DNA of 36,022 bases, taken from positions 1 through 36,022 of the IMG/VR virus record IMGVR_UViG_3300028802_000045; one strand, 5' to 3'. This stretch comes from a virus. Made by a program: the position numbers and the translations under genes. This document shows positions 2,925 through 35,734 of the stretch, piece after piece (position 1 is the stretch's first letter; every line of letters starts with the position of its first letter). Below the pieces are notes generated by a model. That model saw only the letters and a list, made by a program, of their open reading frames with translations, ran no database searches and had not been told where the DNA came from.

Positions 2925-3743
2925 TCAAGCTCGGGGAGGAGGAGCGCTCTCGGGGTTGACCTTCGCGTCGATCGCCGCCACTCGACCCGCGACGAGATCC
3001 CGATGATCCTCTCCCGCGACATGAATGAAGGTCTGGTCGATCTTCTTCCGTATGTCCTTCGCGTTACCTAGCTCGTCGATCCCGAAGTAGTCGTCGAGCT
3101 TCTTCTCGACCCGCGCCAGAAGCTCTCGGTCCTCGTCAGTGAACATCTCCTCATCATCTCCCATCGAAGCCGCTACCCGAGCCCGGAAGTCCCGAGCAGA
3201 CCAGGAGAGCCGAGGTCGACCTCCCGAGTACCAGTCCCCGCCGCCGATCCACGGACCCGCGGGGTCGATCTTCCTCCCCTGAGGAAGAGCCCACTCGTAG
3301 TGACTACAGAAGCGGAGCGGATCGAGAGCCAGGTGACGGAGCAGAGCCGCCACTCCTCGGACGTAGGAGTCGAGCATCTTCTGAGACCAGGGTTCCCCGA
3401 TCCCGTCGTTCTCCGCCTCGATCCCGATCGTCGAGCCATTGCCGAGAGCGGTCCCTTTCCATGCTCCCTTCCCCGCGTGATTCGCGATCCCCGATGCGAT
3501 GACGTACCAGGAGCCATCGCGCCCGAGGAGAAGCTCACAGAGCGGACCCTTCAGGTCGGGTCGCCCAGTGATGACGATCGAGAAGCTCGGGAAGTTTCCG
3601 CTCTTACGATTCGACGCGGTGTGATGACCGACGACGCCGTCGATCGCGTGACTGAACTCGACGCCTCGGGTCTGCCATCCCGCCGCCTCGAAGACCGTCA
3701 GTCCTTCCGATCGGAGGACGTCCGCCAGCCAGAGGAGCCGCAC
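2925..3743 (-). CDS. Endolysin, N-acetylmuramoyl-L-alanine amidase (Amidase_2)
   Basis: 272 residues from a GTG start at 3743, chosen because it directly follows the upstream stop at 3755. It cleaves the amide bond between N-acetylmuramate and L-alanine in host peptidoglycan at lysis. The zinc ligands typical of the family are visible: GVVGHHTAS (His40-His41), SHYEW (His148) and RKIDPAGP (Asp160); IGIEAEND carries the conserved Glu near 109. The last 80 residues (MFTDEDRELLARVEKKL onward) form a charged helical tail that may bind the wall or oligomerise. There is no signal peptide, so release needs a holin. It is the last gene of the operon encoding glycosyltransferases. Confidence 0.92.
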   Translation of the reverse strand: MRLLWLADVLRSEGLTVFEAAGWQTRGVEFSHAIDGVVGHHTASNRKSGNFPSFSIVITGRPDLKGPLCELLLGRDGSWYVIASGIANHAGKGAWKGTALGNGSTIGIEAENDGIGEPWSQKMLDSYVRGVAALLRHLALDPLRFCSHYEWALPQGRKIDPAGPWIGGGDWYSGGRPRLSWSARDFRARVAASMGDDEEMFTDEDRELLARVEKKLDDYFGIDELGNAKDIRKKIDQTFIHVAGEDHRDLVAGRVAAIDAKVNPESAPPPRA

Positions 3744-3754
3744 GAGGGAGGAAC

Positions 3755-4807
3755 CTACTTCGGGGAGCCGACCCAGACGCGGAGAGCTTCGACCGCGCGC
3801 TCGACCTCGGTCCCTTCGTGCGGGTAGACCTCCGCCGTCATCGCCGCGCGCGCCTGAGCGTCGAGGTCGGGATCTTCGTGCGCCGCGAGAGCCGCCGTCG
3901 CCCAGACCTCCGCCGTCCGCTTCGGGTAGCCAGGGAACGGGGAGATCCTCGGGCCGATGTCCGCCCATCGCCAGAAGCGGAGTCCGTGCTCGACGTCCCG
4001 CCGCCATCGGGTCGAGTCGACGACGACGACCGGGATCCCCAGAGCCGCCGCCTCGAAGCCGACCGAGGTCGAGTCGAAGCTCACGACGTCCGCTCGACGG
4101 ACGACCTCCTCGAACTCTCGGACCGGCTCGATCCCCGCTGAGCGGTACAGGGTCTCCGCTCGATCCCAGACCCTCGGGTGAGCGTGACCGATGATCTTCC
4201 CCGCCCAGGTCGAGACGAGGTCGACGAGCGAGGAGACGAACTCGGGGAGCGCCCAGAACGATTCAGGAGCGACGCGGCAGTCCCAATGCCAGCACAGAGC
4301 CAGAACGGGACGTGAACCGGGCTCCGTGAGCCGCTGAGAGGCTCTGGCTTCTCGGAGGTCCGAGAGTCGAGGAGACCCGATTACGACGCTCCTAGGGCCG
4401 TAGAGAGCCTCGTTCGCCCGAGCGACCGCCTCGTTCGTGCAGAGGAAGAGCCCGATCCCGTTCCGCTTCGCTCCTCCTGGGTAGCTCGGATGCGCCTTCT
4501 CGCCCGGAGTGATGTAGGTCTGTCCGGAGCCGTGCTCGACGAGAGCGACCCCCGCGCCCCATCGTCGAGCGTTCTGAGCGTCCCCGATCCCCGCCGTGAG
4601 GACGCGCTTCGCCTTCCAGATCTGCGCCCCGCCTCGACGTCTGCGCCCCTGGGCTTCGAGCACGAGCGGATGCTCGGAGAGCCCCTGACGCTCGTACAGG
4701 ACGTCTCCTCGAAGCTCCTCGGGGAGTCCCCGCCAGATCGGAGCGAGATGATCGAGGTACTGACGCTGAGAGCCGTAGACGTCGATCACAGAACGGACTC
4801 CCACCAT
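3755..4807 (-). CDS. GT-B / CDP-glycerol glycerophosphotransferase-like transferase
   Basis: 350 residues from MVGVRSVIDVYGSQRQYLDH. The C-terminal half has the GT-B pattern ADVVSFDSTSVGFEAAALGIPVVVVDSTR, as in UDP-sugar and CDP-glycerol polymer transferases (a protected-donor-site loop with Ser/Thr, then an 'E-x-A-x-x-G-x-P' strand). It probably transfers a sugar or glycerol phosphate to a surface polymer or to virion protein. Overlaps the upstream gene by 22 bases and is followed after 11 bases by the endolysin. Other in-frame starts upstream would deepen the overlap, so ATG 4807 is preferred. Substrate unknown. Confidence 0.8.
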   Translation of the reverse strand: MVGVRSVIDVYGSQRQYLDHLAPIWRGLPEELRGDVLYERQGLSEHPLVLEAQGRRRRGGAQIWKAKRVLTAGIGDAQNARRWGAGVALVEHGSGQTYITPGEKAHPSYPGGAKRNGIGLFLCTNEAVARANEALYGPRSVVIGSPRLSDLREARASQRLTEPGSRPVLALCWHWDCRVAPESFWALPEFVSSLVDLVSTWAGKIIGHAHPRVWDRAETLYRSAGIEPVREFEEVVRRADVVSFDSTSVGFEAAALGIPVVVVDSTRWRRDVEHGLRFWRWADIGPRISPFPGYPKRTAEVWATAALAAHEDPDLDAQARAAMTAEVYPHEGTEVERAVEALRVWVGSPK

Positions 4808-5754
4808 CCTCGGAGCTTCTCCCAGGATCGAGCCTCCGCCCATTCCCGAACGAAGCCCGAGGTCCGCTGATAGTGGTCCTCGTCGTCGAGGAGGAGGTTC
4901 ACGTACTGCGCGAGAAGCTGAGGTCTCGTCTCGTGATGAACGATCTGATTCCCTCGCATCCGCCGAGTGGACATCTTCCGCGAAGGCACGAGCAGAGAGC
5001 TAGGCCATCCCATCTCGCGGTACCCGCCGACGTCAAGGAGGACAGTCGGGATTCCCATCGCCGCCGCTTCTTGCATCGGGAGGCAGAGACCGCCGTAGCG
5101 TCGAGGAAGGACCAGGACGTCCGCGGTGACGAAGACGTCGAAGTAGTTCCGGAGATCGCGCGCCTCGGATCGACCGCTCTGGACACTGAGGCACAGAGGA
5201 ACCGAGAAGAGCTTCGCCGCCTTCTCGACGAGGAGTGTCCCGTTCCGGTCCCGACCGACGATCCTCCCCGCGGGATGCACGAGCCGACGAGGAGCGCCGA
5301 TCTCGCGAGGGACCGGGTAGTCGAAGCGATCGAGCGCGATCGGAATCGGGATCGTGACGGTCGGAGTCGGGAGCTTGAACGGAGCCCAGGGAGTCGGGTT
5401 GACGTACAGGTCGGGACCGAGCCCAGGACCGAAGCTCGGGAGGTACTCAGGCATGACGACGAGGACCGTCCGGATTCCCTTCTCGCGCGCCATCGGGAAG
5501 AGGTCGGGACCGTAGGGAGTCTCGAACGTGAGGACGGTATCGAGCCCGTCGAGGAAGTCCCCGATCTCTTCCCTCGTCGGGAATCCCGAGGTCCAGTGAG
5601 TCGAGGCAGGGAAGTAAGCCCGGATCGGCGCGTACCCGCGCTCCGCTGAGAGGTCGATCCCGAGGACTCGGTCCGGTCGAAGGTGACGGACGAACTCGAT
5701 CCCGAGGACACCGAGCCCGGTCGAGTCAGCGCGCCCGATGATGCCGAGCGTCAC
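4786..5754 (-). CDS. GT4-like glycosyltransferase
   Basis: 322 residues with GTG start at 5754 overlapping the FkbM stop (GTGA). The N-terminal Rossmann part opens VTLGIIGRADSTGLGVLG; the C-terminal part has VLVLPRRYGGLCLPMQEAAAMGIPTVLLDVGG, the EX7E-type nucleotide-sugar site of retaining GT-B enzymes (GT4). It should move a hexose from a nucleotide sugar to an acceptor in the cytoplasm. The neighbouring FkbM, GT2 and CgeB-like genes point to stepwise building of a glycan on virion proteins or on a host surface polymer. Confidence 0.85.
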   Translation of the reverse strand: MTLGIIGRADSTGLGVLGIEFVRHLRPDRVLGIDLSAERGYAPIRAYFPASTHWTSGFPTREEIGDFLDGLDTVLTFETPYGPDLFPMAREKGIRTVLVVMPEYLPSFGPGLGPDLYVNPTPWAPFKLPTPTVTIPIPIALDRFDYPVPREIGAPRRLVHPAGRIVGRDRNGTLLVEKAAKLFSVPLCLSVQSGRSEARDLRNYFDVFVTADVLVLPRRYGGLCLPMQEAAAMGIPTVLLDVGGYREMGWPSSLLVPSRKMSTRRMRGNQIVHHETRPQLLAQYVNLLLDDEDHYQRTSGFVREWAEARSWEKLRGWWESVL

Positions 5755-6470
5755 CGGAAGCTCGGCTTCCCGAGCCGGTAGTTCGTCCAGAAGAGAAGAC
5801 CTCCGGTCGAGGCTCGACCATGAGTCTCGACCCATCCGTACTCCGCGAGCTTCACGACGATCGGACCGAGCAGACCGGGATCGAGGTCCGTCAAGTGAGG
5901 CATCTTCGGTCCGTGGAACTCCATCGCCAGACGATCGACGCGGTCGAGTAGCTCGGGCTCCATCCCTCGGAAGATCGAGATCTCCCCGCCCTCACAATCC
6001 ATCTTCACGAAGGAGATCCGCTCGAAGGCTCCGAGGACCGCCTCGACCGGAAGGGTCGGGACTTTCCTGCCTTCCTTCTGAGCCGTCGCTCGCGCGCCTC
6101 CGCCTTCGCCAGTGATCCGGAACTCGTCGAGCCCGAAGCCGTCGACCGCGGTAGGCCAAGTCTCGACGACCTCTCGGACCTCGTTCCGCTTCACGTTCAG
6201 GACCAGAGCATCGAAGGTCTCGGGCTGAGGCTCATACGCGACGACGAGCCTCGCTCCGAGCTTCGCCGCGAGGACCGAGAAGGCTCCGAGGTTCGCTCCG
6301 ATGTCGACGACGATCCCGCCCTTCACGTACTCGGATCGAAGGCGATAGTCGTTCCGCTCCCAGACCTCGTGGATCGCGTGCCGATCGGTCTTCCCCTCGA
6401 CGACCTCGAACGTCGCGAAGATCTTCGAGATCCCTCGCCGCGCGGTGAAGCTCGCCCGCTCTTCTTCCAT
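5751..6470 (-). CDS. FkbM-family SAM-dependent methyltransferase
   Basis: 239 residues. The S-adenosylmethionine loop VVDIGANLGAFS (residues 54-65) is followed by the acidic end of strand 2 (AYEPQPETFDAL), and FVKMDCEGGE is the FkbM signature. FkbM enzymes O-methylate sugars or polyketides, so this one probably caps a glycan made by the neighbouring glycosyltransferases. AGGAGG four bases before ATG 6470 decides the start, although a GTG one codon earlier is possible. It overlaps the next gene by GTGA. Confidence 0.9.
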   Translation of the reverse strand: MEEERASFTARRGISKIFATFEVVEGKTDRHAIHEVWERNDYRLRSEYVKGGIVVDIGANLGAFSVLAAKLGARLVVAYEPQPETFDALVLNVKRNEVREVVETWPTAVDGFGLDEFRITGEGGGARATAQKEGRKVPTLPVEAVLGAFERISFVKMDCEGGEISIFRGMEPELLDRVDRLAMEFHGPKMPHLTDLDPGLLGPIVVKLAEYGWVETHGRASTGGLLFWTNYRLGKPSFR

Positions 6471-6479
6471 CACTCCTCC

Positions 6480-7127
6480 TCAGTCGATCCCAGGGTCGAC
6501 GCCGAAGGGGAAGCCGAAGGTCTCGACCCCCGGATCGCCTCCCCATTTCGCCCGGTAGTAAGCCGCCTGACGCTCGTAGTCCACTTCGACCCATCCCTCG
6601 CGCCATGACCGAGCGTGGCCCTTGTCCGTGTAGGTCTCGGAGAGCTTCGGGTCGACGAAGATCTCTCGACCGACGAGCTTCATCCGGTACTCGTAGTCAG
6701 TGTCCTCGAAGTAGATGGGCCAGAAGCCCTCATCGAAAGGACCGGTTACCGCGAGCAGAAGCCCGGAGAGCGTGACGAGATGCCACGCTTGATCTGCGCG
6801 GACCGAGTCCATCGGTTCGAGATGTCGAGCGATCACGTCGATCCTCTGTCCGCCGTCACGGAAGACGACCGCCTCAGAAACGATCACGAGAGAGACGCCG
6901 AGACGAAGCGCCCAGGAGCGCCCGACGTTCCATGACGCCGAGCATCCGAGATTGCTCCCAGTCCTGACGTAGCGGAAGATCCGCTTCGCGAGGAGAGGAT
7001 CGAGACCGTCGACGGAGTTATCGACGACGACGAGAGACTCCCCGATGATCTTCCCTCGGATCGAGCCGATCGTCTCCGCCGCCCATTCGGGCTTCAGCAT
7101 CGGGAGAACCCAGATCGGTCGGTTCAT
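6480..7127 (-). CDS. GT2-like (GT-A fold) glycosyltransferase
   Basis: 215 residues. SLVVVDNSVDGLDPL and YVRTGSNLGCSASWNVG match the donor-binding start of GT2 rhamnosyl/glycosyl transferases; GFWPIYFEDTDYEYRMKLVG has the ED(T/V)D catalytic region. It starts by ATGA overlap with the CgeB-like gene. It acts in the cytoplasm on a nucleotide sugar; acceptor unknown. It is shorter than many GT2 enzymes because it ends soon after the acceptor-site region. Confidence 0.85.
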   Translation of the reverse strand: MNRPIWVLPMLKPEWAAETIGSIRGKIIGESLVVVDNSVDGLDPLLAKRIFRYVRTGSNLGCSASWNVGRSWALRLGVSLVIVSEAVVFRDGGQRIDVIARHLEPMDSVRADQAWHLVTLSGLLLAVTGPFDEGFWPIYFEDTDYEYRMKLVGREIFVDPKLSETYTDKGHARSWREGWVEVDYERQAAYYRAKWGGDPGVETFGFPFGVDPGID

Positions 7128-8080
7128 CGGAAGTAGTCACGCTCGACGACGTCGAGGAGCTTCGCCATCCGCTGAGCGTAAGTGTGCCGTTCCCTCGTGG
7201 ATTCGATCGCCCGCTCCCGCATCCGCTCCGCTCGATCGGGGTCGTCGAGGAGCGCGTCGATCTTCTGTCCTAGCTCGATGTAATCCCCGAAGCGATAGGT
7301 CTCGAAGTCGAGTCCGGGGTCGTACTCCTGACCGATGCCGACGATCTCGGGATGAACGAGGACCCCGCCTCGACCGAGGGTCTGGTAGATCCGATCGGAC
7401 CAGTAGTAGCCGTGAACGAAGTCGGGACAGAACGAGTCCCCGACGACGACCTCCGCCGTCGCATAGAGACGATTCAGGTCGTCGCCGTGAATCCGCTTCC
7501 CGTCCTCGGGGAAGATCCGGAAGTCCTTCCCGTACCTTCGTTCGAGGAAACTCAGCACGTCCGCTCGGTACTGCCACTCACGGTGATAGCTCCTCGCTCC
7601 GCCGACGAACGCGACCCGACACTCGAAGCGCCCGTCTCCGTCGCGCTGAGCCCGGTAGCACTCGTCCTCGGGGATCGCTCCACAGAGCCAGTGATGACGG
7701 ACGAGCTTCCGCTTCCAGAACTCAGACGATGTCCCTCCGTCCGCGGTGAAGACGAAGTCCGCCTTCCACCATCCGTCGAGACCTACGTCGAGGACGCGCG
7801 GGAGACCGGTGAAGATGTCCAAGTGATAGGAGACCATCGGGACGTAGCTCGCTCGGATTCGCTCGATCTCCTCACCGCCGCCGCGCTGACCGCGGATCGG
7901 TCGCGCCGAGAGGAAGATGAGATCGCACTCTCGCCGCTCCGCTCGTCGAGCTAGCTCGACCCAGGACGTTTCGCTCGACTCGATCCTGAAGACGGTCTGA
8001 CCGAGCGCGTCGAGAGCGTCCGCACAATGAACCTCGGTATGCCAGGACTCCCGGAATCCGCCGACGTACGCGATCCGCAT
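7124..8080 (-). CDS. CgeB-like glycosyltransferase
   Basis: 318 residues, GT-B fold. The N-terminal strand MRIAYVGGFRESWHTEVH starts a Rossmann domain; the C-terminal part (SDRIYQTLGRGGVLVHPEIVG, then a helix pattern ending AMRERAIESTRERHTYAQRM-like) is the pattern of the CgeB / Glyco_trans_1_2 group. Members of this group add sugars to spore or surface structures, and similar genes occur in phages with glycosylated virions. It is the first large gene of the glycosylation block and has an SD-like CGGGAG before its ATG. Confidence 0.83.
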   Translation of the reverse strand: MRIAYVGGFRESWHTEVHCADALDALGQTVFRIESSETSWVELARRAERRECDLIFLSARPIRGQRGGGEEIERIRASYVPMVSYHLDIFTGLPRVLDVGLDGWWKADFVFTADGGTSSEFWKRKLVRHHWLCGAIPEDECYRAQRDGDGRFECRVAFVGGARSYHREWQYRADVLSFLERRYGKDFRIFPEDGKRIHGDDLNRLYATAEVVVGDSFCPDFVHGYYWSDRIYQTLGRGGVLVHPEIVGIGQEYDPGLDFETYRFGDYIELGQKIDALLDDPDRAERMRERAIESTRERHTYAQRMAKLLDVVERDYFR

Positions 8081-9124: not shown

Positions 9125-9237
9125 TCGAGCTACTGAAGCGACTCGCTCGACGGCTGAACGACTTCTTCGGCTTCGTCCCTGACGACGATCACCGCGTCCT
9201 CGACGCGCTCGACTTCGATCCCGAGGAGGAGTCATGA
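9121..9237 (+). CDS. Tiny protein (38 residues) between coupled genes
   Basis: GTG start in the previous stop (GTGA); ends ATGA into the large gene. Sequence VIELLKRLARRLNDFFGFV..., an amphipathic basic helix, then an acidic end (LDALDFDPEEES). Coupling on both sides supports translation. Function unknown. Confidence 0.6.
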   Translation: MIELLKRLARRLNDFFGFVPDDDHRVLDALDFDPEEES

Positions 9238-10493
9238 CCGAGCATCGGACGATCGTCGACTCGAAAACCTTCGACGCGATCGCCGCCGCCGCAGAGGAGA
9301 CCGGAGCCCGTCCGCTCGACGCGCTCGACGGAGTCCTGAACCTCGTCAACTTCTTCCACTCCCCGCACGGACGAGGGATCGCTCGGGCTCACGTCGATTA
9401 CTACGCTCACCGGAATATCACCGTCGAGGGAGGGAACCTCCCGCTCTCAGTCGATCCGAACTTCGCGCACGAGCAAGAGGGGCAGCTTCTCGCGAAGGGA
9501 TGGCTCGCGCTCTTCGATGACGTCGTCGGAGAAGGGATGGTCTACGTCACGCCGCGAATGGTGAAGATCATCTCCGACCTCGCCGCCGAGCTTCCCGACG
9601 ATCCGCTCCTCCTACCCGAGCACGTCCCGCTCGAAGTCGGGACGGTCTGGCTCGGAGCCCCACTCACCCTCGGAGGCTCGATCGACGCGACCGAATATTT
9701 CGAGGGTCTCGCTTCACAGAATCGGGTTCCGGTCCGCGTGATCTCCTGGACGACCCGAGAGCGCGTCGAGTCCGAGGCTCACGAGATCGCCGGGGATCTG
9801 AACGGAAAGGGAGTGACGATCCTCAGCTTCACGAAGGGAACCGAGATCGCGGAAGTGAACCGTCATCTCGACTCCTTCTCGAAGGAGAACTCGAAGGGTG
9901 AGTCCGCGGTGAAGCTCATCGAGGAGCAGGGGATCGACTGGGTCCCCTGGGAAACGATGGGATGGGGCTATGACGCTCCGTGGCGCGGAGCTACTCCCGA
10001 GGAGACCGAGGAGCTAGAAGCCGACCCGCACGCGTGGACTCGTGATGAGAAGCGCGCGGGAGTCCCCGAGCCCGAGCCTCTGAGGGACGGACCGGTAGGC
10101 GTGAAGAACATCGAGCAGACGGTCCTCCGCCGCTTCCTCTTCGCTCTCTGGCATCTCATGACCGAGGAGGTCGCCGTCGAGGTCCCGTACCGCCCGGACC
10201 GTCACGCTCAGCGGAGAGTCTCCCGCTCGAAGCGCCCGGACCTCGCGGTCTCCGTGATCCATCTCCGCCGCTTGTATGACCCCGCCGTGCCGCACTCCGA
10301 CGAGGAAAGAGCCGAGCGGAAGCGCCTCGATCGGGTCTATTCGCACCGATGGAGAGTCCGGGATCATTGGCGTTGGCAGGCATACGGACCGGGGATGAGT
10401 CTCCGGAAGCGGATCCGGATCGAGAGCTACGTGAAGGGACCAGAGGAGAAGCCGCTCATCGAGAAGCCCCGGATCTACTCGGTCGAGCGATAG
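9234..10493 (+). CDS. Conserved actinobacterial phage/plasmid-type protein, unknown function
   Basis: 419 residues, the largest accessory gene here. The C-terminal 80 residues (SHRWRVRDHWRWQAYGPG, then ESYVKGPEEKPLIEKPR) match a pattern I associate with a widespread actinobacterial family of unknown role, with a Trp/Arg-rich 'WxVxxHWRxQ' block and a 'KGPExKPL' block. The N-terminal region has helices and a Phe/His segment (LNLVNFFHSPHGRG). No catalytic motif or membrane segment is visible. It is the end of rightward operon 2; the next promoter (P3) starts immediately after its stop. Confidence 0.75.
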   Translation: MTEHRTIVDSKTFDAIAAAAEETGARPLDALDGVLNLVNFFHSPHGRGIARAHVDYYAHRNITVEGGNLPLSVDPNFAHEQEGQLLAKGWLALFDDVVGEGMVYVTPRMVKIISDLAAELPDDPLLLPEHVPLEVGTVWLGAPLTLGGSIDATEYFEGLASQNRVPVRVISWTTRERVESEAHEIAGDLNGKGVTILSFTKGTEIAEVNRHLDSFSKENSKGESAVKLIEEQGIDWVPWETMGWGYDAPWRGATPEETEELEADPHAWTRDEKRAGVPEPEPLRDGPVGVKNIEQTVLRRFLFALWHLMTEEVAVEVPYRPDRHAQRRVSRSKRPDLAVSVIHLRRLYDPAVPHSDEERAERKRLDRVYSHRWRVRDHWRWQAYGPGMSLRKRIRIESYVKGPEEKPLIEKPRIYSVER

Positions 10494-13229: not shown

Positions 13230-13537
13230 ACGAAGACGCTCTCTCGCGCGCAGAGAACCCCCGAGTCGGAAGCGTCGACGTCGTTCCCCGTCCCGACCCA
13301 TTCCCAGGGGAAGCGTCCTCGCTCGGTCATCGGCAGATTGACGTGATAGAGCCCGACTCCGTCCTTCACGATCTCCGCGTCGATGAGGTAGGTCCAGACC
13401 GTCACGTTTCCGTCTGGGTCATGCCACTCGAACGTGACGACCGCGGGGTCCGCGAGCGCCTTCGTCGAGTCGCGGAACTCGACCTCGACCAAAGGAGCCG
13501 AGTGAAGGTTCGCCATCGTGACATCGCATCGACTCAT
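13226..13537 (-). CDS. Small beta-sandwich virion protein
   Basis: 103 residues. LVEVEFRDSTKALADPAVV and VTFEWHDPDGNVTVWTYL, then GLYHVNLPMTERGRFPWEWVG resemble small Ig-like/BppU-like domains common in actinophage structural operons. It could be a head decoration, neck or baseplate-related protein. It is coupled by ATGA both to the repeat protein upstream and to the adaptor. Role inferred from position. Confidence 0.7.
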   Translation of the reverse strand: MSRCDVTMANLHSAPLVEVEFRDSTKALADPAVVTFEWHDPDGNVTVWTYLIDAEIVKDGVGLYHVNLPMTERGRFPWEWVGTGNDVDASDSGVLCARESVFV

Positions 13538-16032
13538 GAGACGTGAGCCCTCGCGCTTCCGTTCGAGACAGTCGCTTCGGTCTTGCCTTCCGAGACTACC
13601 GCGAGAGCTTCCGCCGAGATCGTGACGGTCGTCGAGGTCTTCCCCTTCGAGATCCGCGCCCGAGCGCTCGGGACGTGGAACGAGGTCGAGACGCGCGCCC
13701 GCGCCTGACCGACCGCGGTTCCGACCGGAGCCGAGACGAGGACGATCGAGAGCGCCCCGGTCGGACCGATGACACCGACGAGGAGCTTTCCGGTCTGCCT
13801 CGCGAGGAGCGCCCCAGGGATGATCGCTCCGCCGAGAGCAAGCGTGACCGCCTGAGTCTCCGTGAGCGTCCCTGAAGGCGTGACGGAGCCGCCCGTATGA
13901 AGCCCGGTCTCGTTCGAGGGATCTCCGCTCGATCCCGCCGTACCAGTGAGCGCGACGAGGACGAGGAAGCTCAGATCGCCCGACGACGGGAGCGTCGAGG
14001 TAAGAAGAAGGTTGTTCCCTGCCTGAGCCTGAATCGTCCCCGAGGGAGCGACGGTCCCGTCGAGATCGAAGCCGACGAGCTTCGTCACTGAACCGGAAGG
14101 CGTGACAGAGCCCGAGAGCGACCTCATGACGACGAAGGTCAGGCTTCCCGCGGGAGTGAGTGAACCCGAGAGCGCGACGCCTTCGGGGAATGTGAGCGTT
14201 CCGCTCGGAGTGAGTGCTCCTGTCTTCGTGACGAGGACGAGCTTCGAGACGGTCCCGCTCGAAGCGATCGAGCCGCCGAGCGCGATCGCTTCGGATTCGT
14301 CGACCTCGCCCGAGGGAGTGAGGGAGCCAGTCGCGGAGATCGAGGACAGCTTCGCCACGGAGCCCGAAGGCGTGATCCCTGAGGAGAGAGCGCGCGTGAC
14401 GAGCTTCGAGAGTGAGCCCGAGGGAGCGATCGTCCCCGTAAACGGGAGAACCTCGTTCTGGTCGAGATTCCCGCTCGGAGTCGAGGCTCCGGACGTGACG
14501 TAGTTCGTCCGCTTCGTGACCGCGCCCGAAGGAGTGATCGAGCCTGAGAGCGTCAGGACGTGAGCCGTCGAGGTCGTCAGGCTTCCCGAGGGAGTTATCC
14601 CGCCCGAGAGCGCCTTCGAGATCCGCTTCGTAACGGAACCCGCGGGAGTCAGGGAGCCCGACAAGGGGACGACGAGCGCCTCGTCGATCTCGCCGCTCGG
14701 GGTCAGTCCGCCCGAGGTCCGCTTCTGGTCTTGCTTCGAGACCGAGCCCGAGGGAGTGAGTCCGCCCGAGAGAAGCCAGGAGATCGACTTCGTCAGAGCA
14801 CCGTGAGGAGTAATCCCTCCCGCGAGCGCCTTCTGAGCTTGCTTCGCCAGAGCCCCGGTAAGAGTGCTCAGGGAGCCCGAGAGCGCCTTCGTCGCCGTTC
14901 GAGCCAGAGTCCCCGCAGGAGTCCCCGCAGAGCCGGTGAGCGTCTTCTGGTCCCGCTTCGCCACGGAACCTGAAGGGGTCTCGGAGCCCGCGAGCGGAGC
15001 ACCGATGAGATGAGTCCCGGAACCCGAGGGAGTCTCGCCGCCTCCCGCAATCTTCGAGGTCTGCCGCGTCTCGGCTCCCGAGGGAGTCATCGAGCCCGAG
15101 ACCGCTACTCCGTGAAGGGTCGCGCGGGTCACCGCGCCTGAAGGAGTGACCCCTCCCGAGAGCGGAACCGTGACGAGCTTCGCGACCGCCCCTGAGGGAG
15201 TCTCCGCTCCGCTGAGGGTCTTCGTGAGGACGTTCCGACCCGCGATCGTCCCCGCGGGAGTGATCCCTCCGGGGAGAGGCTTATTCGTCTGACGCGTCTC
15301 GGTCCCAACGAGCTTCGTCGAAGCGACCGCTGCCGTGGACCGAGCTACGTGGAAGCCGCTCGCCGGGGTCCAGAGCTTCGGCGGATCTTCGACGACGGTC
15401 GCGCCGGTGTTCGTCCAGAGACCGGTACTCCCCGCGAGGTCGTACAGTCCCGCTCCCGCGAGAGGAAGGTAGAACCGAGGCTGACCGTGAGCGAAGAGGA
15501 CCGTCCAGTCGCCTTGACGGTATCGCTCCGCCTCATCGAGCGTCATCGCCCACGGAACGAAGAACGCGTGAGCGAGACGGCCGTGCCATACCCGAGCGTT
15601 ATCGAGCGCGCGGTTGCCGATCTCAACCGCGGTGAGACCGGTCTCGCGCGTCCCCGAGCCGTCGTTACTCGTCGAGATCGTCGAGATCGCCATCGGTGTG
15701 GCGAGGTTCCCGATGTAGGGGAACGAGTTAGCGACTGTCAGAGTGCCGTCATTCGTGACGACGGTCGCGTGCCACGCTGACAATTGAGCACCGAGCCATC
15801 CCCACTGAAGATCGAGGTTCGCCGTCGCGCCGATCTGAAACGCGATCTGCCCTGATGAGCCGGGGGCGCGAAGATGAACCCCCGCGCCGGTCGTCCCTAT
15901 GTGAATGAATCGGCCGCTGACCGCGTCGTCGGTATCGGTGTAGAGCCAGCACCCCATCGAGAACGGACCGCTATCGTGCGCGGTGATCGTCCCCGCGACG
16001 TTGTCGGTCGCGCCAGCGAAGAGACGACTCAC
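13534..16032 (-). CDS. LamG-like protein with about 28 TPSG repeats (fibre/host-binding candidate)
   Basis: 832 residues. The first 240 form a ConA/LamG-like jelly roll (FSMGCWLYTDTDD, then HAFFVPWAMTLDEAERYRQG). Residues about 262-750 hold roughly 28 imperfect units of about 18 residues centred on (S/T)G-x-(I/L)TPSG-x(1)-(V/L)-x-K, predicted as beta turns and strands. The last 60 residues are Ser/Ala/Arg-rich. This layout suggests an extended, cell-binding fibre or head-decoration protein. It overlaps its paralogue upstream by ATGA. Confidence 0.8.
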   Translation of the reverse strand: MSRLFAGATDNVAGTITAHDSGPFSMGCWLYTDTDDAVSGRFIHIGTTGAGVHLRAPGSSGQIAFQIGATANLDLQWGWLGAQLSAWHATVVTNDGTLTVANSFPYIGNLATPMAISTISTSNDGSGTRETGLTAVEIGNRALDNARVWHGRLAHAFFVPWAMTLDEAERYRQGDWTVLFAHGQPRFYLPLAGAGLYDLAGSTGLWTNTGATVVEDPPKLWTPASGFHVARSTAAVASTKLVGTETRQTNKPLPGGITPAGTIAGRNVLTKTLSGAETPSGAVAKLVTVPLSGGVTPSGAVTRATLHGVAVSGSMTPSGAETRQTSKIAGGGETPSGSGTHLIGAPLAGSETPSGSVAKRDQKTLTGSAGTPAGTLARTATKALSGSLSTLTGALAKQAQKALAGGITPHGALTKSISWLLSGGLTPSGSVSKQDQKRTSGGLTPSGEIDEALVVPLSGSLTPAGSVTKRISKALSGGITPSGSLTTSTAHVLTLSGSITPSGAVTKRTNYVTSGASTPSGNLDQNEVLPFTGTIAPSGSLSKLVTRALSSGITPSGSVAKLSSISATGSLTPSGEVDESEAIALGGSIASSGTVSKLVLVTKTGALTPSGTLTFPEGVALSGSLTPAGSLTFVVMRSLSGSVTPSGSVTKLVGFDLDGTVAPSGTIQAQAGNNLLLTSTLPSSGDLSFLVLVALTGTAGSSGDPSNETGLHTGGSVTPSGTLTETQAVTLALGGAIIPGALLARQTGKLLVGVIGPTGALSIVLVSAPVGTAVGQARARVSTSFHVPSARARISKGKTSTTVTISAEALAVVSEGKTEATVSNGSARAHVS
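13800..15290. repeat. Tandem DNA repeats encoding TPSG units
   Basis: About 54-base imperfect repeats, with 'cccgagggagtga' and variants recurring at nearly even spacing on the plus strand, encode the TPSG units of the repeat protein. Unit identity is imperfect (some differ by many bases), so the array is old or diverged, but it could still allow copy-number change by recombination. Confidence 0.75.
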
Positions 16033-25380: not shown

Positions 25381-25527
25381 TCAGGGTCTCTTCGGAGAAC
25401 AGTCGGGACAGTCGATGTCGACCGCCCAGATCGAGAGCGAGAAGCTCGGGAGATCCTTCTTCGGGATCTCGATCCCGCATCGGGTGAGCGTCGACTTCGC
25501 CGTCGTCTCCGCTATCCGGTGAGTCAT
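25381..25527 (-). CDS. Tiny Cys protein (48 residues)
   Basis: MTHRIAETTAKSTLTRCGIE..., ending with IDCPDCSPKRP. ATG 25527 overlaps the portal stop (ATGA). C-x2-C at the end plus one Cys earlier (RCGIEI) could bind zinc. Function unknown. Confidence 0.6.
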   Translation of the reverse strand: MTHRIAETTAKSTLTRCGIEIPKKDLPSFSLSIWAVDIDCPDCSPKRP

Positions 25528-28109
25528 GACCAGATCGGAACCGCGTCGCATCGACACCCGCCGTGATCTCCGACGAAGAAGAAGTCCCCGATCCACTCGG
25601 CTCCCGTTCCCTCCGTCGAGAGGACCGGGTCGTCGTCGCTTGCGTACTGGACTCCGCCGCCGTCAGGACCCGAGCTACCGAGTGCGAAGTGAGGCTCGAA
25701 GATCGCCTGACCCTCGTCGTTCCAGATCCACTCGAAGCCCTGCCACGGTTGACCCTCTGAGCCCCAGAGCGCCGCGACGTCGTCACCGGTCGAGAAGCCT
25801 CCCGCGTACCCTCCCGTCGAGCCGTCCTTCACGCCTCCCGACGAGGTCTTGATCGGTGAATTACCTCCCGCGACCGACAGAGCGAAGCGGATCACTCCCG
25901 CGGGGACGATCGACGACGAGGTCTCCCCTAGCTCGGCATGAGGAGCGGGATCGAAGACGGACTGTCGAGCGATCGTGAGCAGAGCCGCCGAGAGGAAGAG
26001 CCATCCCGCTTTGCTCCGCTCGTCCGCCTTCGCTCGGTAGTTCGAGATCGCCGTTCCGTCAGGGTCGGTACCGAGCGAACGTGAAGCCGTCGAGACGACG
26101 TCGTCCTGAGCACCCGCGAGCCAGTCGTTCCATCGCTCTTCGAGGTCGTCGAAGTCCGCGGAGAAGAGATCGTCGGGCTCGACCGCGAGAGAGATGATCC
26201 GCTCACGTCCGAGGGTCGCGAGGAGTCGACGGTTCGAGACCGCGACCATCTCGTGATTCAGATCGGATCGCATCGAGCCGACTCGGCCCGCCTTCAGTGA
26301 TGAGCGGAGCTTCGCTCCCGCGCGCTCGACCGCTCGGGTCACGGTTGCATCTGCCGCCACGATGAGCCGCTCTCGGAGTCGACGGTCTATCGCCATGAGC
26401 CGTAGAGCGGAGCGCTTCTGCGCCCTCGATGCGGACGCCGTGATCGGTGAGCCCTCACCCGAGGGAGGACCGAGCGTCCCGCCGCCGCTCTCGACGGGAG
26501 GTGCGGGGAGCTTGTTTCCGCCCGGAGGAGCGGGAGACCCGCCGCCCTGACCGATAGCTACCGCGGGCTCCGTGAAGTTCGTCCCGAAGATCTGATTCAG
26601 GAGCGGGACGACCGCGTCAGGGAGGACCGTCTGTCGGGAGATGATCCGAAGGAAGACCTCTTCGGGAGTCGGCGCGTCCGCATCGGTGAAGCCGAGCGCC
26701 GAGCGGAAGGCTTCGTTCGAGATCGCGATCCCGGAGTGTCCCGCTACCGCGTTGTCTACGCGGTTCGGTCGAGTCGTGAGGTCCTTCGGGTCGCCGTAGA
26801 GGACGAAGTGAGAAGCCGCCTCGGGGTCGACGCCGGAAGCGATCAAGCGGGGACGGAGGTACTTCAGGGTCAGCGCGTCGAAGAGAGGCTGAAGGGTCGG
26901 AGCTACGTAGAGCCGGTACGTCTCCTCGTCGATGAGCCATGCAGTCCAGTGATTCGACTCACCGATCGAGCCGGTGATCCTCTCGGAGGGAAGTTCGAGG
27001 GTCGCGCCGATCCGCTCACGGAGGTACTGGCAACGGTTGACGACCTCGGGGTCGAGGGTCCGCCCAGTGTCGATCATGAAAGCGAGATCCCGAGCGTTCA
27101 CTCCCGCATCGGTCCTCGACGGGAGACGCAGGAGGAACGGGACCGCCGCCGATGCCGACCCTGGGTCCTGGATCGGGGTCGACATATGCTTCACGATCTC
27201 GACGAGCAAGGGGTCTTGCTGAGGGTTCTCCGTATCGTCGTCCTCGTCCGGTTCGAGCGCGACCGGTCGAGGCTCGATGTCATCGGAGATCGCGAGGATC
27301 CCCGCAGGGATACGAGAGAGACCGGTCGCTCGGATCGAAGCGTCGAGGACTCGAAGCTCCTCGCACTCAGTCAGGCATCCGTGAAGGTTCGAGTCGGAGA
27401 GATCGCCGTAGCGTCCGTGCCGCCGCCAGATCCGGAGAAGGATCGCATCGTCGGGAAGATGAATGTCGAGCAGACCGGGAGCGTCCGTACCCGAAGCCGT
27501 CTGGGCTTGACCCGAGCGACGGATGAGGACCTTCGGGTCGCCGCCCTTCGCTCGCTCGTCGCGGACGATCTCATCAGAGGAGAGGCAAAGCCAGACCTCT
27601 TCGAGCGTGACGGGGTCGACGAAGCCGACGACGTACGCCTCTCCGATGACGAAGCTCTTCAGAGCCCAGGACCCGAGAAGCGCGCCTTCGCCTTCCTGTC
27701 CGCTCACGACTCCCTGAACGAGCATCTCAGCGATCGCTACGTCCGCCGCGGAGACGACCGAGTCCTCCTGAGCGCTCTCTAGCTCGGGAGCGTTCGGAGC
27801 GCCCAAGATGAGCCCTCGCTCCTCCGCATCGTGGAGAGCTACAGGGTCCTCCCCGAGACCGGGAATGATGCCGAGCGCGAGGACGACCCTCGACGCCGCG
27901 GACTCCATGAAGCGACCGCCGCCCTTCACTTCCCCGACGTCGTCGAAGGCGCGCCATGCCAGGGAATACCAGCCTTGACGCGTCTGCTCGACCGTCGCGG
28001 GGGTCGAGGTAGAGCCGACTTCGAGCTTCATCGCGGATGCTTGCATCACGACGGGACGAAGACGGGAGGGAGCGGGGAGGACTACGTCCTCGGACCTACG
28101 GCGCGCCAT
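25524..28109 (-). CDS. Portal protein fused to a MuF-like C-terminal region
   Basis: 861 residues from MARRRSEDVVLPAPSRLRP (ATG 28109). The first about 530 residues are portal-like (ARDLAFMIDTGRTLDPEVVNR, VLYGDPKDLTTRPNRVDNA); a Gly/Pro-rich linker follows (GGNKLPAPPVESGGGTLGPP, about 540-580). The C-terminal 280 residues end in FFFVGDHGGCRCDAVPIW, the MuF minor-head-protein signature, with IFEPHFALG before it. It forms the dodecameric DNA entry ring and brings the MuF domain into the head. Longer than usual portals (about 500). No dedicated MuF gene is seen. Confidence 0.88.
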   Translation of the reverse strand: MARRRSEDVVLPAPSRLRPVVMQASAMKLEVGSTSTPATVEQTRQGWYSLAWRAFDDVGEVKGGGRFMESAASRVVLALGIIPGLGEDPVALHDAEERGLILGAPNAPELESAQEDSVVSAADVAIAEMLVQGVVSGQEGEGALLGSWALKSFVIGEAYVVGFVDPVTLEEVWLCLSSDEIVRDERAKGGDPKVLIRRSGQAQTASGTDAPGLLDIHLPDDAILLRIWRRHGRYGDLSDSNLHGCLTECEELRVLDASIRATGLSRIPAGILAISDDIEPRPVALEPDEDDDTENPQQDPLLVEIVKHMSTPIQDPGSASAAVPFLLRLPSRTDAGVNARDLAFMIDTGRTLDPEVVNRCQYLRERIGATLELPSERITGSIGESNHWTAWLIDEETYRLYVAPTLQPLFDALTLKYLRPRLIASGVDPEAASHFVLYGDPKDLTTRPNRVDNAVAGHSGIAISNEAFRSALGFTDADAPTPEEVFLRIISRQTVLPDAVVPLLNQIFGTNFTEPAVAIGQGGGSPAPPGGNKLPAPPVESGGGTLGPPSGEGSPITASASRAQKRSALRLMAIDRRLRERLIVAADATVTRAVERAGAKLRSSLKAGRVGSMRSDLNHEMVAVSNRRLLATLGRERIISLAVEPDDLFSADFDDLEERWNDWLAGAQDDVVSTASRSLGTDPDGTAISNYRAKADERSKAGWLFLSAALLTIARQSVFDPAPHAELGETSSSIVPAGVIRFALSVAGGNSPIKTSSGGVKDGSTGGYAGGFSTGDDVAALWGSEGQPWQGFEWIWNDEGQAIFEPHFALGSSGPDGGGVQYASDDDPVLSTEGTGAEWIGDFFFVGDHGGCRCDAVPIWS

Positions 28110-28133
28110 GAGCGCCGATCCTACGGCGCGGAG

Positions 28134-28173
28134 CGAGGCTCCCCGCGGAAGGTGCGAACCGCGAGGAGCCTCG
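28134..28173. terminator. Near-perfect hairpin before the portal gene
   Basis: Arms of 15 bases (CGAGGCTCCCCGCGG against CCGCGAGGAGCCTCG, one mismatch or G-U) with a ten-base loop, in the 86-base gap between DUF1360 and portal. On the minus strand it precedes the portal ATG, so it could be an attenuator or processing stem. Confidence 0.5.
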
Positions 28174-28195
28174 ACCGTGTAACCCCTCGACGACC

Positions 28196-28534
28196 TTACC
28201 TCTCGACGTAGGCCGCGAGAAGACCAGAGATCTCGGACGCCGCGAGGACCCGAGCGAGGGAGCGCCATCCGGGAAGACGTCGAGCCACAAGCACGAGGAG
28301 CCCGACCCAGATCGAAGCGCACCACGCGCACGAGAGAAGCTCCTCGACGTAGGTCGACTCGAAGTGACCGGGATGCTTCGTGCAGAGATCGCCTTCGCAC
28401 TCGTGAGACTCGAAGATCCTCCGCTTCTCCGCCTTCAGGATTCGAGCCCGGAGCCAGCCGAAGGGGACGCGGTCCTCGACGACTAGGCGCGTGATCCGAG
28501 CGACCGCGAGAGCGTCGACGATCTCGTCGATCAT
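28196..28534 (-). CDS. DUF1360 protein
   Basis: 112 residues. The Leu/Val-rich N-terminus with VARITRLVVED, then EELLSCAWCASIWVGLLVLVARR (C-x2-C plus a membrane segment) and SEISGLLAAYVER match the DUF1360 family of actinobacteria and their phages. It is membrane-associated with unknown role. The start ATG 28534 overlaps the gene before (ATGA). Confidence 0.8.
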   Translation of the reverse strand: MIDEIVDALAVARITRLVVEDRVPFGWLRARILKAEKRRIFESHECEGDLCTKHPGHFESTYVEELLSCAWCASIWVGLLVLVARRLPGWRSLARVLAASEISGLLAAYVER

Positions 28535-28743: not shown

Positions 28744-28964
28744 CGCCCGAGGCTCGAAGCTACGAGGGTGAGCCCAGGACGGAGAGTCCCGTCCTTCTCG
28801 GGCTCCCAGAGGACGAGACCCATCGCGTGAGCCGCGGTGAGGTAACGATGAGCCGTCTCGCTCGACTTCCACCCGCACGCCGCGCCGACCTCGCGCACGT
28901 TCCGAGCGCCGCAGAGGACCGCCATCGCCGCCGCCGCGACCGGAGGAGGAACGAGCCCGATCAC
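28740..28964 (-). CDS. Small LexA-like helix-turn-helix protein
   Basis: 74 residues with a GTG start (GTGA). NVREVGAACGWKSSETAHRY followed by LTAAHAMGLV (residues about 22-51) resembles the winged helix at the N-terminus of LexA (T-x-R-E-I-A...K-S-x-S-x-V-x-x-x-L). It has no C-terminal peptidase, so it would be a small DNA-binding regulator. Target unknown. Confidence 0.65.
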   Translation of the reverse strand: MIGLVPPPVAAAAMAVLCGARNVREVGAACGWKSSETAHRYLTAAHAMGLVLWEPEKDGTLRPGLTLVASSLGR

Positions 28965-29200
28965 CGATCGTCCCCTTTCAGACCGAGGTATTCGAAGTCC
29001 CGAGCGATCCGATCTGCCTTCACGATCCGACAGCCCGAGCGATCACGGATCACCGCGTCCCCCTTCTCGAAGCCCTTCGATCGGAGACGGACCGTGAGGT
29101 CCATCCCCGACCAAAGCTCTACCTCTTCCCTCGAATCCGGAGAGCCGTCATAGACGATCGCCTCGACCTCGACCGGTCGAGTGCGCCATCGCTCGATCAC
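28961..29200 (-). CDS. Small phage protein of the VEAIxxDG type
   Basis: 79 residues from a GTG overlapping the LPxTG gene stop (GTGA). RTRPVEVEAIVYDGSPDSRE followed by DLTVRLRSKGFEKGDAVIRD matches a common small protein of actinophages ('xxVEAIxWdG... GDxVI'). Role unknown. Confidence 0.7.
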   Translation of the reverse strand: MIERWRTRPVEVEAIVYDGSPDSREEVELWSGMDLTVRLRSKGFEKGDAVIRDRSGCRIVKADRIARDFEYLGLKGDDR

Positions 29201-29802
29201 GGCTTCCGGTGCAAGACGTTCTTCGTGACGAGAGCTAGCCATCCGAGGAAGAGCAGACCGCCCGCGAGAGCTAGCTCGATGTCGGTCTGAGCGCCAGTGT
29301 GCGGAAGCTCGGTCGGAACGGTCGCCGGGACGGTCTGGTCGACCGCCGTCGTATCCGGGATCGTCGTCGGAGCGACCGTCGTCGGAGCGACTGAGACCGG
29401 GAGGGTAGTGGTCGTCTTCGCGACGGTCGTCGTCGTCTGAGGGACCGTAGTGGTCGAGCCGTTCTGACCCGCACAGAGCGGAGCACAAGAGCCGACCGTC
29501 GTCGTCGTCTGAGGGACGGTCGTCGTCTCCTGGGGCTTCGTCGTCGTCGTCGCGATCGTCGTCGCGGTTGTAGTGGTCGCGATCGTGGTCGTCGCCTGAG
29601 TGGTCGTCGCCGCGGTCGTCGTCGGGTAGGTAGTCGTGACGTGAACGGTCGTCGTCGGATCGGGGATGCAAGGCTGACCGTCCGTCGTCGTCGTCGAGCA
29701 GTACCAGTGAGGGACCGATCGAGCTTCCGCCGTCTGACCGAAGGTAAGCCCTCCGATCGCTAGCGCCGCTATGAGCCCGAGCCCCGCCATGAGTCGCTTC
29801 AT
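29197..29802 (-). CDS. Secreted Thr-rich protein with LPxTG cell-wall anchor
   Basis: 201 residues. Residues 1-27 are a signal peptide (KR, hydrophobic LMAGLGLIAALAIGGLTF, cleavage after AEA). The mature part is about 40% Thr with TTT/TTTV runs and four cysteines in two pairs (WYCSTTTTDGQPC, SCAPLC). At residue 166 is LPHTG, then a membrane segment LALAGGLLFLGWLALV and HRKP: the layout of a sortase substrate anchored to peptidoglycan. An SD AGGAG and a GTAAAGTAACCGGG promoter lie upstream. It is coupled to the next gene by GTGA. Confidence 0.85.
   Translation of the reverse strand: MKRLMAGLGLIAALAIGGLTFGQTAEARSVPHWYCSTTTTDGQPCIPDPTTTVHVTTTYPTTTAATTTQATTTIATTTTATTIATTTTKPQETTTVPQTTTTVGSCAPLCAGQNGSTTTVPQTTTTVAKTTTTLPVSVAPTTVAPTTIPDTTAVDQTVPATVPTELPHTGAQTDIELALAGGLLFLGWLALVTKNVLHRKP
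29330..29700. repeat. Low-complexity DNA encoding Thr runs
   Basis: Repeated 'gtcgtcgtc' and 'gtggtcg' units on the plus strand encode Thr-Thr-Thr tracts. The array is imperfect and could vary in length by slippage. Confidence 0.6.
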
Positions 29803-29832
29803 CTGGTCTCCTATTCGGTGAACGCTGAGTGT

Positions 29833-29846
29833 CCCGGTTACTTTAC
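29833..29846 (-). promoter_or_regulatory. Promoter-like element GTAAAGTAACCGGG, copy a
   Basis: Minus strand -10-like TAAAGT (29840-29845) with a 37-base leader and an SD before the LPxTG gene at 29802. It also overlaps the TAA stop of the gene at 29843. Confidence 0.6.
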
Positions 29847-30139
29847 TCTCCGGGATCGCCGGAGTCGAGATCCTCTCCGAGATCCGCGAGGAGCTTCGCT
29901 CGTGAGACGACCCCCTTCTTCGTCGTCGCCTTCGGTTGTTCGATGAGCCTCCCCGTCGCCGCTACGTCGTGAAGGTTGACGTCCTGGGCGCACCGAGAGC
30001 AGAAGTCGTGAGTCGGGCTCTCCGTCCGATCCTTCGAGGTCGCCTTCGCTCGAATCCATTCCTCGGGAGGGAAGCCAGGCATCCCGCCTCGATCCTCGGT
30101 CCCGCATCCGTCGCAGACCCAGATCCCGAGATGACTCAC
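29843..30139 (-). CDS. Zinc-ribbon protein
   Basis: 98 residues from a GTG (GTGA). CDGCG near residue 10 and CSRCA near residue 50 form a two-part zinc ribbon; the rest is basic (KATTKKGVVSRAKLL) then acidic. It overlaps the promoter element at its stop. Function unknown; probably a nucleic-acid or protein binder. Confidence 0.7.
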   Translation of the reverse strand: MSHLGIWVCDGCGTEDRGGMPGFPPEEWIRAKATSKDRTESPTHDFCSRCAQDVNLHDVAATGRLIEQPKATTKKGVVSRAKLLADLGEDLDSGDPGE

Positions 30140-31553: not shown

Positions 31554-31567
31554 CCCGGTTACTTTAC
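31554..31567 (-). promoter_or_regulatory. Leaderless promoter-like element GTAAAGTAACCGGG, copy b
   Basis: TAAAGT (31561-31566) then seven bases to ATG 31553. A possible -35 TCGACA lies 18 bases upstream. The previous gene stops four bases before the element. Confidence 0.65.
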
Positions 31568-35135: not shown

Positions 35136-35398
35136 GCCGATTCGGCTTCCACGAGGAGACGCGCGCGTCGAGCCGTCTGGTACTGAGCGAAAGCCGTACG
35201 GCATAGCTGGCACTTACACCGGTAGTTCGTATATCCGTTCAGCGTGCCGTGACGAGGGTCTCCCGCCTTCAGCTTCCCGCGGTTGTCCCGTCGCTCCTCG
35301 ATGACGGTCGCCCATGCCGCGCGGCACTTCTTACACCGGCACTCGTGCGCGTTGTAGCCCGAGATCGTGCCGTGCTTGAACTTCGCCTTCTTCGTCAT
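35132..35398 (-). CDS. Double zinc-knuckle protein (HGTxxGY...CxCxxC)
   Basis: 88 residues with two copies of the motif: KHGTISGYNAHECRCKKCRA and RHGTLNGYTNYRCKCQLCRT, separated by a basic linker. The same motif occurs once in the 25152 protein. It probably binds zinc and DNA or RNA. Its start overlaps the upstream gene's stop by ATGA. Confidence 0.7.
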   Translation of the reverse strand: MTKKAKFKHGTISGYNAHECRCKKCRAAWATVIEERRDNRGKLKAGDPRHGTLNGYTNYRCKCQLCRTAFAQYQTARRARLLVEAESA

Positions 35399-35718
35399 GC
35401 GGGGACCTCCTCCCAGGCACTAGGCGGACGGAACTTCTTGATCGGTTGCGAACACTGACAACCCTTCAGAGCCTCGAATGAAGCGAAGTCCTCGGGGAGA
35501 TCTCCTTCGATGGCCGCGGGTAGCTCGACTCGGGGACCTCCCGCGACGAGCCGTCGCTTCTCTCCCCAGGAGCGGATATGACCCCCGAAGATGGAGCCGA
35601 GCAGACGACCGCCGCTTCGTCCCCAGACGTAGAAGCGGACGCCGCGCCCGTCGTCGTGAGCGAGGACCGGTTCGAGGACCTCTCCTGTCTTCATCGTCAC
35701 CCTCGCATAGTGCGCCAT
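35395..35718 (-). CDS. Unknown protein, first gene after promoter copy c
   Basis: 107 residues, MAHYARVTMKTGEVLEPVLA, beta-rich (RFYVWGRSGGRLLGSIF), with a C-terminal CQCSQPIKKF. The ATG lies nine bases after TAAAGT of the promoter element, so the mRNA is nearly leaderless. No family recognised. Confidence 0.7.
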   Translation of the reverse strand: MAHYARVTMKTGEVLEPVLAHDDGRGVRFYVWGRSGGRLLGSIFGGHIRSWGEKRRLVAGGPRVELPAAIEGDLPEDFASFEALKGCQCSQPIKKFRPPSAWEEVPA

Positions 35719-35720
35719 AG

Positions 35721-35734
35721 CCCGGTTACTTTAC
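35721..35734 (-). promoter_or_regulatory. Near-leaderless promoter-like element GTAAAGTAACCGGG, copy c
   Basis: TAAAGT (35728-35733) with nine bases to ATG 35718; the element overlaps the TAA of the partial gene at its right. No clear -35. Confidence 0.65.

Follow-up and report, generated by a model that had tools for sequence, protein, structure and literature searches.

A threonine-rich LPxTG protein encoded by an actinobacterial-type phage, a predicted substrate of the host sortase with counterparts in other phages

A well-known precedent for surface proteins carried by phages is SasX, a wall-anchored LPXTG protein encoded on phiSPbeta-like prophages, which promotes aggregation and virulence (PMC8655729, PMC10232760). 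In soil and freshwater Actinobacteria, the LAxTG motif is the signal of class E sortases (PMC5148588). The 36,022-nt virus record from IMG/VR analysed here (IMGVR_UViG_3300028802_000045; hereafter the window) carries a gene whose predicted product is, like SasX of Staphylococcus aureus and its homologue SesI, a phage-encoded protein of the LPXTG wall-anchor type. The window also holds portal, MuF/protease-like, major head, major tail, and head-tail adaptor genes, together with an amidase endolysin (2925–4007) and glycosyltransferases. No integrase was present in the subset of window ORFs scanned, on a contig that is probably incomplete.

Analysis of the gene product confirmed the elements named in the original prediction, namely a signal peptide, a stalk rich in Thr and bearing two Cys pairs, an LPHTG motif, a membrane segment, and the HRKP tail (Table 1). 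Hydropathy and a test of the n-region gave a signal peptide that begins with MKR, continues into a hydrophobic core, and ends in ...TAEA, while the C-terminal tail was short and only modestly basic (K, H, R, K). Threonine made up 30% of the residues, a globular domain was nearly absent, and no enzymatic or wall-binding domain was found in the protein. Its score against the NCBIfam model TIGR01167 (LPXTG_anchor) was 18.5 bits in the protein scan, over the cut-off of 15.9, and 22.1 bits in genome mode; against Pfam PF00746 it scored 12.8, which is below the gathering cut-off of 20. When 400 third-order Markov windows were simulated and filtered for a signal peptide, LPxTG, a membrane segment, and a basic tail, none contained an ORF with the complete sorting architecture, vs. 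one ORF in the real window. As to the claim that the protein is exported and fixed to the wall by a sortase, the substrate architecture was borne out by sequence and comparison, and the anchoring itself is a prediction.

Table 1. Features of the LPxTG gene, its product, and the surrounding operon (window positions).
Feature	Position	Strand	Basis or remark
LPxTG surface-protein gene, 201 aa	29197..29802	-	ATG start; TIGR01167 and simulation
Signal peptide, residues 1–28	29719..29802	-	Hydropathy
First Cys pair, C35–C45	29668..29700	-	Counterparts CGGPC in L002, CDEENGREC in L004 and L164
Thr-rich stalk, ~residues 50–152	29347..29655	-	
Second Cys pair, C106–C110, inside stalk	29473..29487	-	Counterparts CTPDPAFPNKVC in L002, CC in L004 and L164
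LPHTG sortase motif, residues 166–170	29293..29307	-	
Hydrophobic membrane segment, ~residues 177–193	29224..29274	-	
Short basic tail KNVLHRKP	29200..29223	-	
Shine-Dalgarno-like AGGAGA before ATG of LPxTG gene	29807..29812	-	
Portal gene, downstream of LPxTG gene	25524..28400	-	Listed ORF; true start probably internal
Next gene (VIERWRTRPVEVEAIVYDG...)	28961..29200	-	GTG start shares 4 nt (GTGA) with LPxTG stop
Upstream Zn-ribbon-like small gene (CDGCG...CSRC)	29843..30139	-	Syntenic in L002 and L004
Promoter-like element GTAAAGTAACCGGG	29833..29846	-	Overlaps stop codon of upstream gene; identical ahead of the LPxTG gene in L002 and L004
Second exact copy of GTAAAGTAACCGGG	31554..31567	-	In-frame ATG directly after; possible leaderless start
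Third exact copy of GTAAAGTAACCGGG	35721..35734	-	2 nt before ATG of ORF 35395–35718

A search for related loci with the window protein alone gave no match because of the low complexity of its stalk, and relatives were reached through the portal gene instead. Three IMG/VR contigs (L002, L003, and L004) carried portals approximately 80% identical to that of the window; L003 does not cover the LPxTG slot, whereas L002 and L004 extend far enough upstream. The slot was occupied in L002 by a 189-aa LPxTG protein ending LPHTG...RRKA and in L004 by a 284-aa one ending LPVTG...RRA. The L002 protein was over the TIGR01167 cut-off, and the L004 protein was just under it in the protein scan and over it in the genome scan. 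The three proteins differed greatly in sequence and aligned poorly; what they kept was the signal peptide, the two Cys pairs, the Thr stalk, E-L-P-x-T-G, the membrane segment, and a basic end. The GTGA stop/start overlap that follows the gene was also found in all three, leading in L004 into a different, HTH-like gene. Judged from its sequence context, the LPxTG gene is a phage gene, since it has the same place, the same 14-bp element, and the same GTGA overlap in two close relatives. Its position in a leftward operon towards the portal and head genes was likewise supported by sequence and comparison, and it lies on the early side of the portal, distant from the lysis gene. Two more secreted proteins were predicted in the related phage (L004 6420–6683 and L167 1633–2118, both on the minus strand), one of them encoded against the operon direction.

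The 14-bp element emerged from the comparison of relatives. Upstream of the LPxTG gene, AGTAAAGTAACCGGGACAC was identical in the window, L002, and L004, and its core is GTAAAGTAACCGGG. Exactly three copies of this core occurred in the window, all on the minus strand, vs. an expectation of 0.71 even with three mismatches allowed; each relative had two, at corresponding places in the operon (263 and 2787 in L002, 3671 and 5079 in L004), and a search of 3.8 Mb of phage DNA from unrelated phages (both strands) found none. The TAAAGT of the element agrees with a −10 box of the TANNNT type, which would place the start 7 nt further on. On this reading the starts at 31567 and 35734 look leaderless, and the LPxTG gene would have a leader of roughly 30 nt from the predicted start. 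We infer that GTAAAGTAACCGGG is a phage-specific promoter. A promoter-like element belonging to the gene itself, as in the original prediction, is supported by the repeated, conserved element at 29846–29833; it has no sigma-70 consensus, and scanning found no sigma-70 promoter, −35 box, or terminator.

Elsewhere in the window, a UDP-GlcNAc-epimerase-like gene, three glycosyltransferase genes, and one methyltransferase gene were clustered at 3755–8080 on the minus strand and may modify virion or wall glycans; by eye, a seemingly similar cluster was present on the contig of L004 (L166 2792–6507). A large minus-strand ORF (13534–16032), which had no PHROGs or Pfam match, contained degenerate direct repeats at 13858–15315 with spacings near multiples of 54–60 nt; a 65-nt unit occurred there 11 times at an identity of at least 60%. 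The largest rightward ORF (9234–10493, 419 aa) matched phrog_15934, of unknown function, and was followed by many small rightward ORFs.

The portal of the window matched 848 isolated phage records, all at less than 60% identity and mostly from phages of Mycobacterium, Gordonia, and Microbacterium, from which we infer that the host is an actinobacterium. In named genomes, the only prophage portals reached were loci of Streptomyces and Streptosporangium with an identity of about 25%, and within the likely host class the identity of portal relatives was close to 30%. A phage-encoded sortase was looked for in phage records and none was found. A sortase was present in 56 of the 60 genomes examined from an actinobacterial class that is itself only a plausible host. 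This class was identified through an additional conserved N-terminal domain of approximately 75 aa, which is part of the L004 protein and absent from the window and L002 versions. The same domain was found in L164, a contig of an unrelated phage that carries genes of the terminase small-subunit and DUF932 types. Its LPxTG protein shares with that of L004 not only the N-terminal domain but also the stalk, including CDEENGRECPTTTLATTT and TTTTGNVGICCL (65% overall), and the stalk with Cys loops (CDEENGREC...GNVGICC) recurs there. In chromosomes the domain occurred in Thr-rich proteins of 4 of 296 genomes, all of the one class, and a separate search of genome contigs gave no match to it. Among secreted or LPxTG-type Thr-rich proteins encoded on actinobacterial chromosomes, two (L179 and L181) have Thr-rich stalks after this domain and a third (L180) combines it with an LPRTG end and RRRRA, whereas the window protein lacks it. 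Peptidoglycan glycosyltransferases were considered as relatives of the domain and rejected, as their PDB profile matches (E ~0.2) were read as chance.

Taken together, the product of the window gene is probably a surface coat, made during infection and anchored by the host sortase, which would alter access to the cell surface. For the steps beyond the sequence, this proposal draws on established knowledge of LPxTG proteins. The gene would be transcribed by the phage from the GTAAAGTAACCGGG element, and the small surface protein would be exported through the host Sec pathway during infection. The host sortase would then cut LPHT/G between T and G and link the protein to peptidoglycan, so that the infected cell would carry a cover of stalks that are rich in Thr, knotted by disulphides, and probably O-glycosylated. 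Export, cleavage, wall linkage, glycosylation, and timing are all predicted steps. As to what such a coat would do, our leading guess, which we hold at somewhat under even chances and only provided that anchoring occurs, is that competing or sibling phages would adsorb less to the doomed cell or to its debris. What favours a shielding role is the retention of the stalk despite variation in sequence and head domain. Counting against a single reading, the additional N-terminal domain of L004 and L164 could equally mean adhesion.

Adhesion is the reading that survives best after shielding, although we consider it rather unlikely: the anchored stalk would act as an aggregation factor that sticks infected cells together or to surfaces and brings new hosts near the progeny. 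By analogy, SasX is a prophage-encoded LPXTG protein that promotes intercellular aggregation (PMC10232760), and the N-terminal domain of L004 and L164 is shared with the Thr-rich chromosomal proteins; that domain is nevertheless missing from the window and L002 versions, its fold was not obtained (structure model with pLDDT 49), and a short lytic cycle would leave little time for aggregation to act. The Thr-rich LPxTG style and the occurrence of the relatives' domain in chromosomal proteins could also suggest a host surface gene acquired as a moron, without any role in the phage cycle. This is improbable given that the same operon place is occupied in three diverged phages with the element and the translational coupling conserved, that LPxTG proteins recur in unrelated phages, and that no frameshift or decay was seen. 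An effect on the wall or on lysis, whereby the anchored protein delays or focuses lysis or guards the wall against the lysins of other phages, would suit an envelope location in a phage with its own amidase endolysin, but it is quite improbable for a protein in which wall-binding and enzymatic domains were not found and whose gene lies remote from that for lysis and, relative to the portal, on the early side. That the product belongs to the virion or stays in the cytoplasm, its LPxTG having arisen by chance, as the operon shared with head genes might suggest, is hardly credible in view of its signal peptide and complete sorting signal (0/400 by chance), the latter conserved in relatives.

Further candidates in other phages were found by several routes. 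A strict DNA pattern for a stalk with LPxTG gave no match, and a looser pattern gave 73 loci, a handful of them with the entire sorting signal. The complete LPxTG proteins from IMG/VR adjoined phage genes such as those for a dNMP kinase (L102), a helicase (L104), a NinG/HNH nuclease (L126), and a DNA methyltransferase (L161). The protein of L104 (239–1045, plus strand) is an LPRTG phage protein with a collagen-like stretch, matching NF038329 at E 2e-11, below the cut-off. An Excalibur-like Cys/Asp-rich motif (CDDV/F...DxDxDGxxC) preceded the sorting signal of a phage sortase substrate in L206 (IMGVR_UViG_3300006846_000001) and likewise that of gp246 of phage Cece (L218 843–2171). With TIGR01167, 14 control genomes all gave matches at E 1 and 9 of them exceeded the cut-off; because such matches are common, HMM matches were accepted only once the ORF ends had been read. 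Phendrix (15.2 bits) and two IMG/VR records were rejected as sortase-signal phages, with scores under the cut-off.

Among 60 records scanned, nine of them isolated phages, TIGR01167 was over the cut-off in the Microbacterium phages Pumpernickel, Leaf, Megan, and Cece, and reading of the ORFs gave the signals LATTG, LAQTG, LAQTG, and LAATG, respectively, followed by a membrane segment and basic tails. Pumpernickel gp243 had no clear signal peptide from its annotated start, and its open frame is longer. Krampus gp58, encoded beside a DNA polymerase in a phage listed as lytic (PMC7302621), had a signal peptide and LAQTG. All five further homologues (Metamorphoo gp82, Jayden gp81, Squash gp73, FuzzBuster gp74, and Magritte gp249) ended in an LAxTG signal. 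Leaf gp123 matched 134 phage records and Krampus gp58 matched 131, many of these matches being partial and the signal not established in every one. The LAxTG motifs of these Microbacterium phages agree with the signal that class E sortases recognise in Actinobacteria (PMC5148588). These genes were annotated "membrane" or "hypothetical", and one relative, Paschalis gp81, as a glycosyltransferase. The text of a 116-phage Microbacterium genome paper contained neither "sortase" nor "LPXTG", and our literature search found no paper recognising sortase signals in isolated Microbacterium phages. The original prediction had called phage-borne LPxTG proteins of this sort little described; this agrees with the annotations and with the literature search and does not hold for the well-known SasX. 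Sortase signals themselves proved to be common among isolated Microbacterium phages.

More broadly, actinobacteriophages, many of them lytic, may commonly coat infected cells with sortase-anchored proteins, as a general, hitherto unnoticed layer of surface remodelling and phage–phage competition, using a signal that fits the host (LAxTG in Microbacterium, LPxTG here), a generalisation that we regard as possible rather than probable. If true, actinobacterial phages borrow the host sortase to remodel the infected cell's surface during their own replication, and "membrane" or "hypothetical" annotations could be corrected in possibly more than 100 phage genomes. As the set includes phages cultured on Microbacterium foliorum, function can be tested with laboratory phages. 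The surface proteins known from phages have mostly been interpreted as lysogenic conversion to the benefit of the bacterium, whereas a coat made in the lytic cycle would serve the phage.

Compared with the window protein, the LAxTG proteins (including Krampus gp58, Leaf gp123, Pumpernickel gp243, Megan gp43, and Cece gp246) have in common the C-terminal sortase signal and, in the majority of the N-termini read, a signal peptide. They are encoded by single genes beside replication or small genes and have about 430–730 aa with globular repeats and no Thr stalk, whereas the window protein is smaller and carries LPHTG; by tblastn against phages with the low-complexity filter on, it had no match at E 1, Krampus gp58 and Leaf gp123 included. 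The gene for SasX, on a staphylococcal prophage, acts in lysogenic conversion and favours colonisation by the bacterium; the window gene, in contrast, belongs to an actinobacterial-type phage operon and encodes a Thr-rich stalk. The likeness to SasX and SesI lies in the phage origin and the predicted LPXTG wall anchor; the low-complexity stalk makes homology hard to judge. Phage-borne LPXTG proteins are, as SasX illustrates, not new; the versions with a Thr stalk and those of lytic phages look like an overlooked variant.
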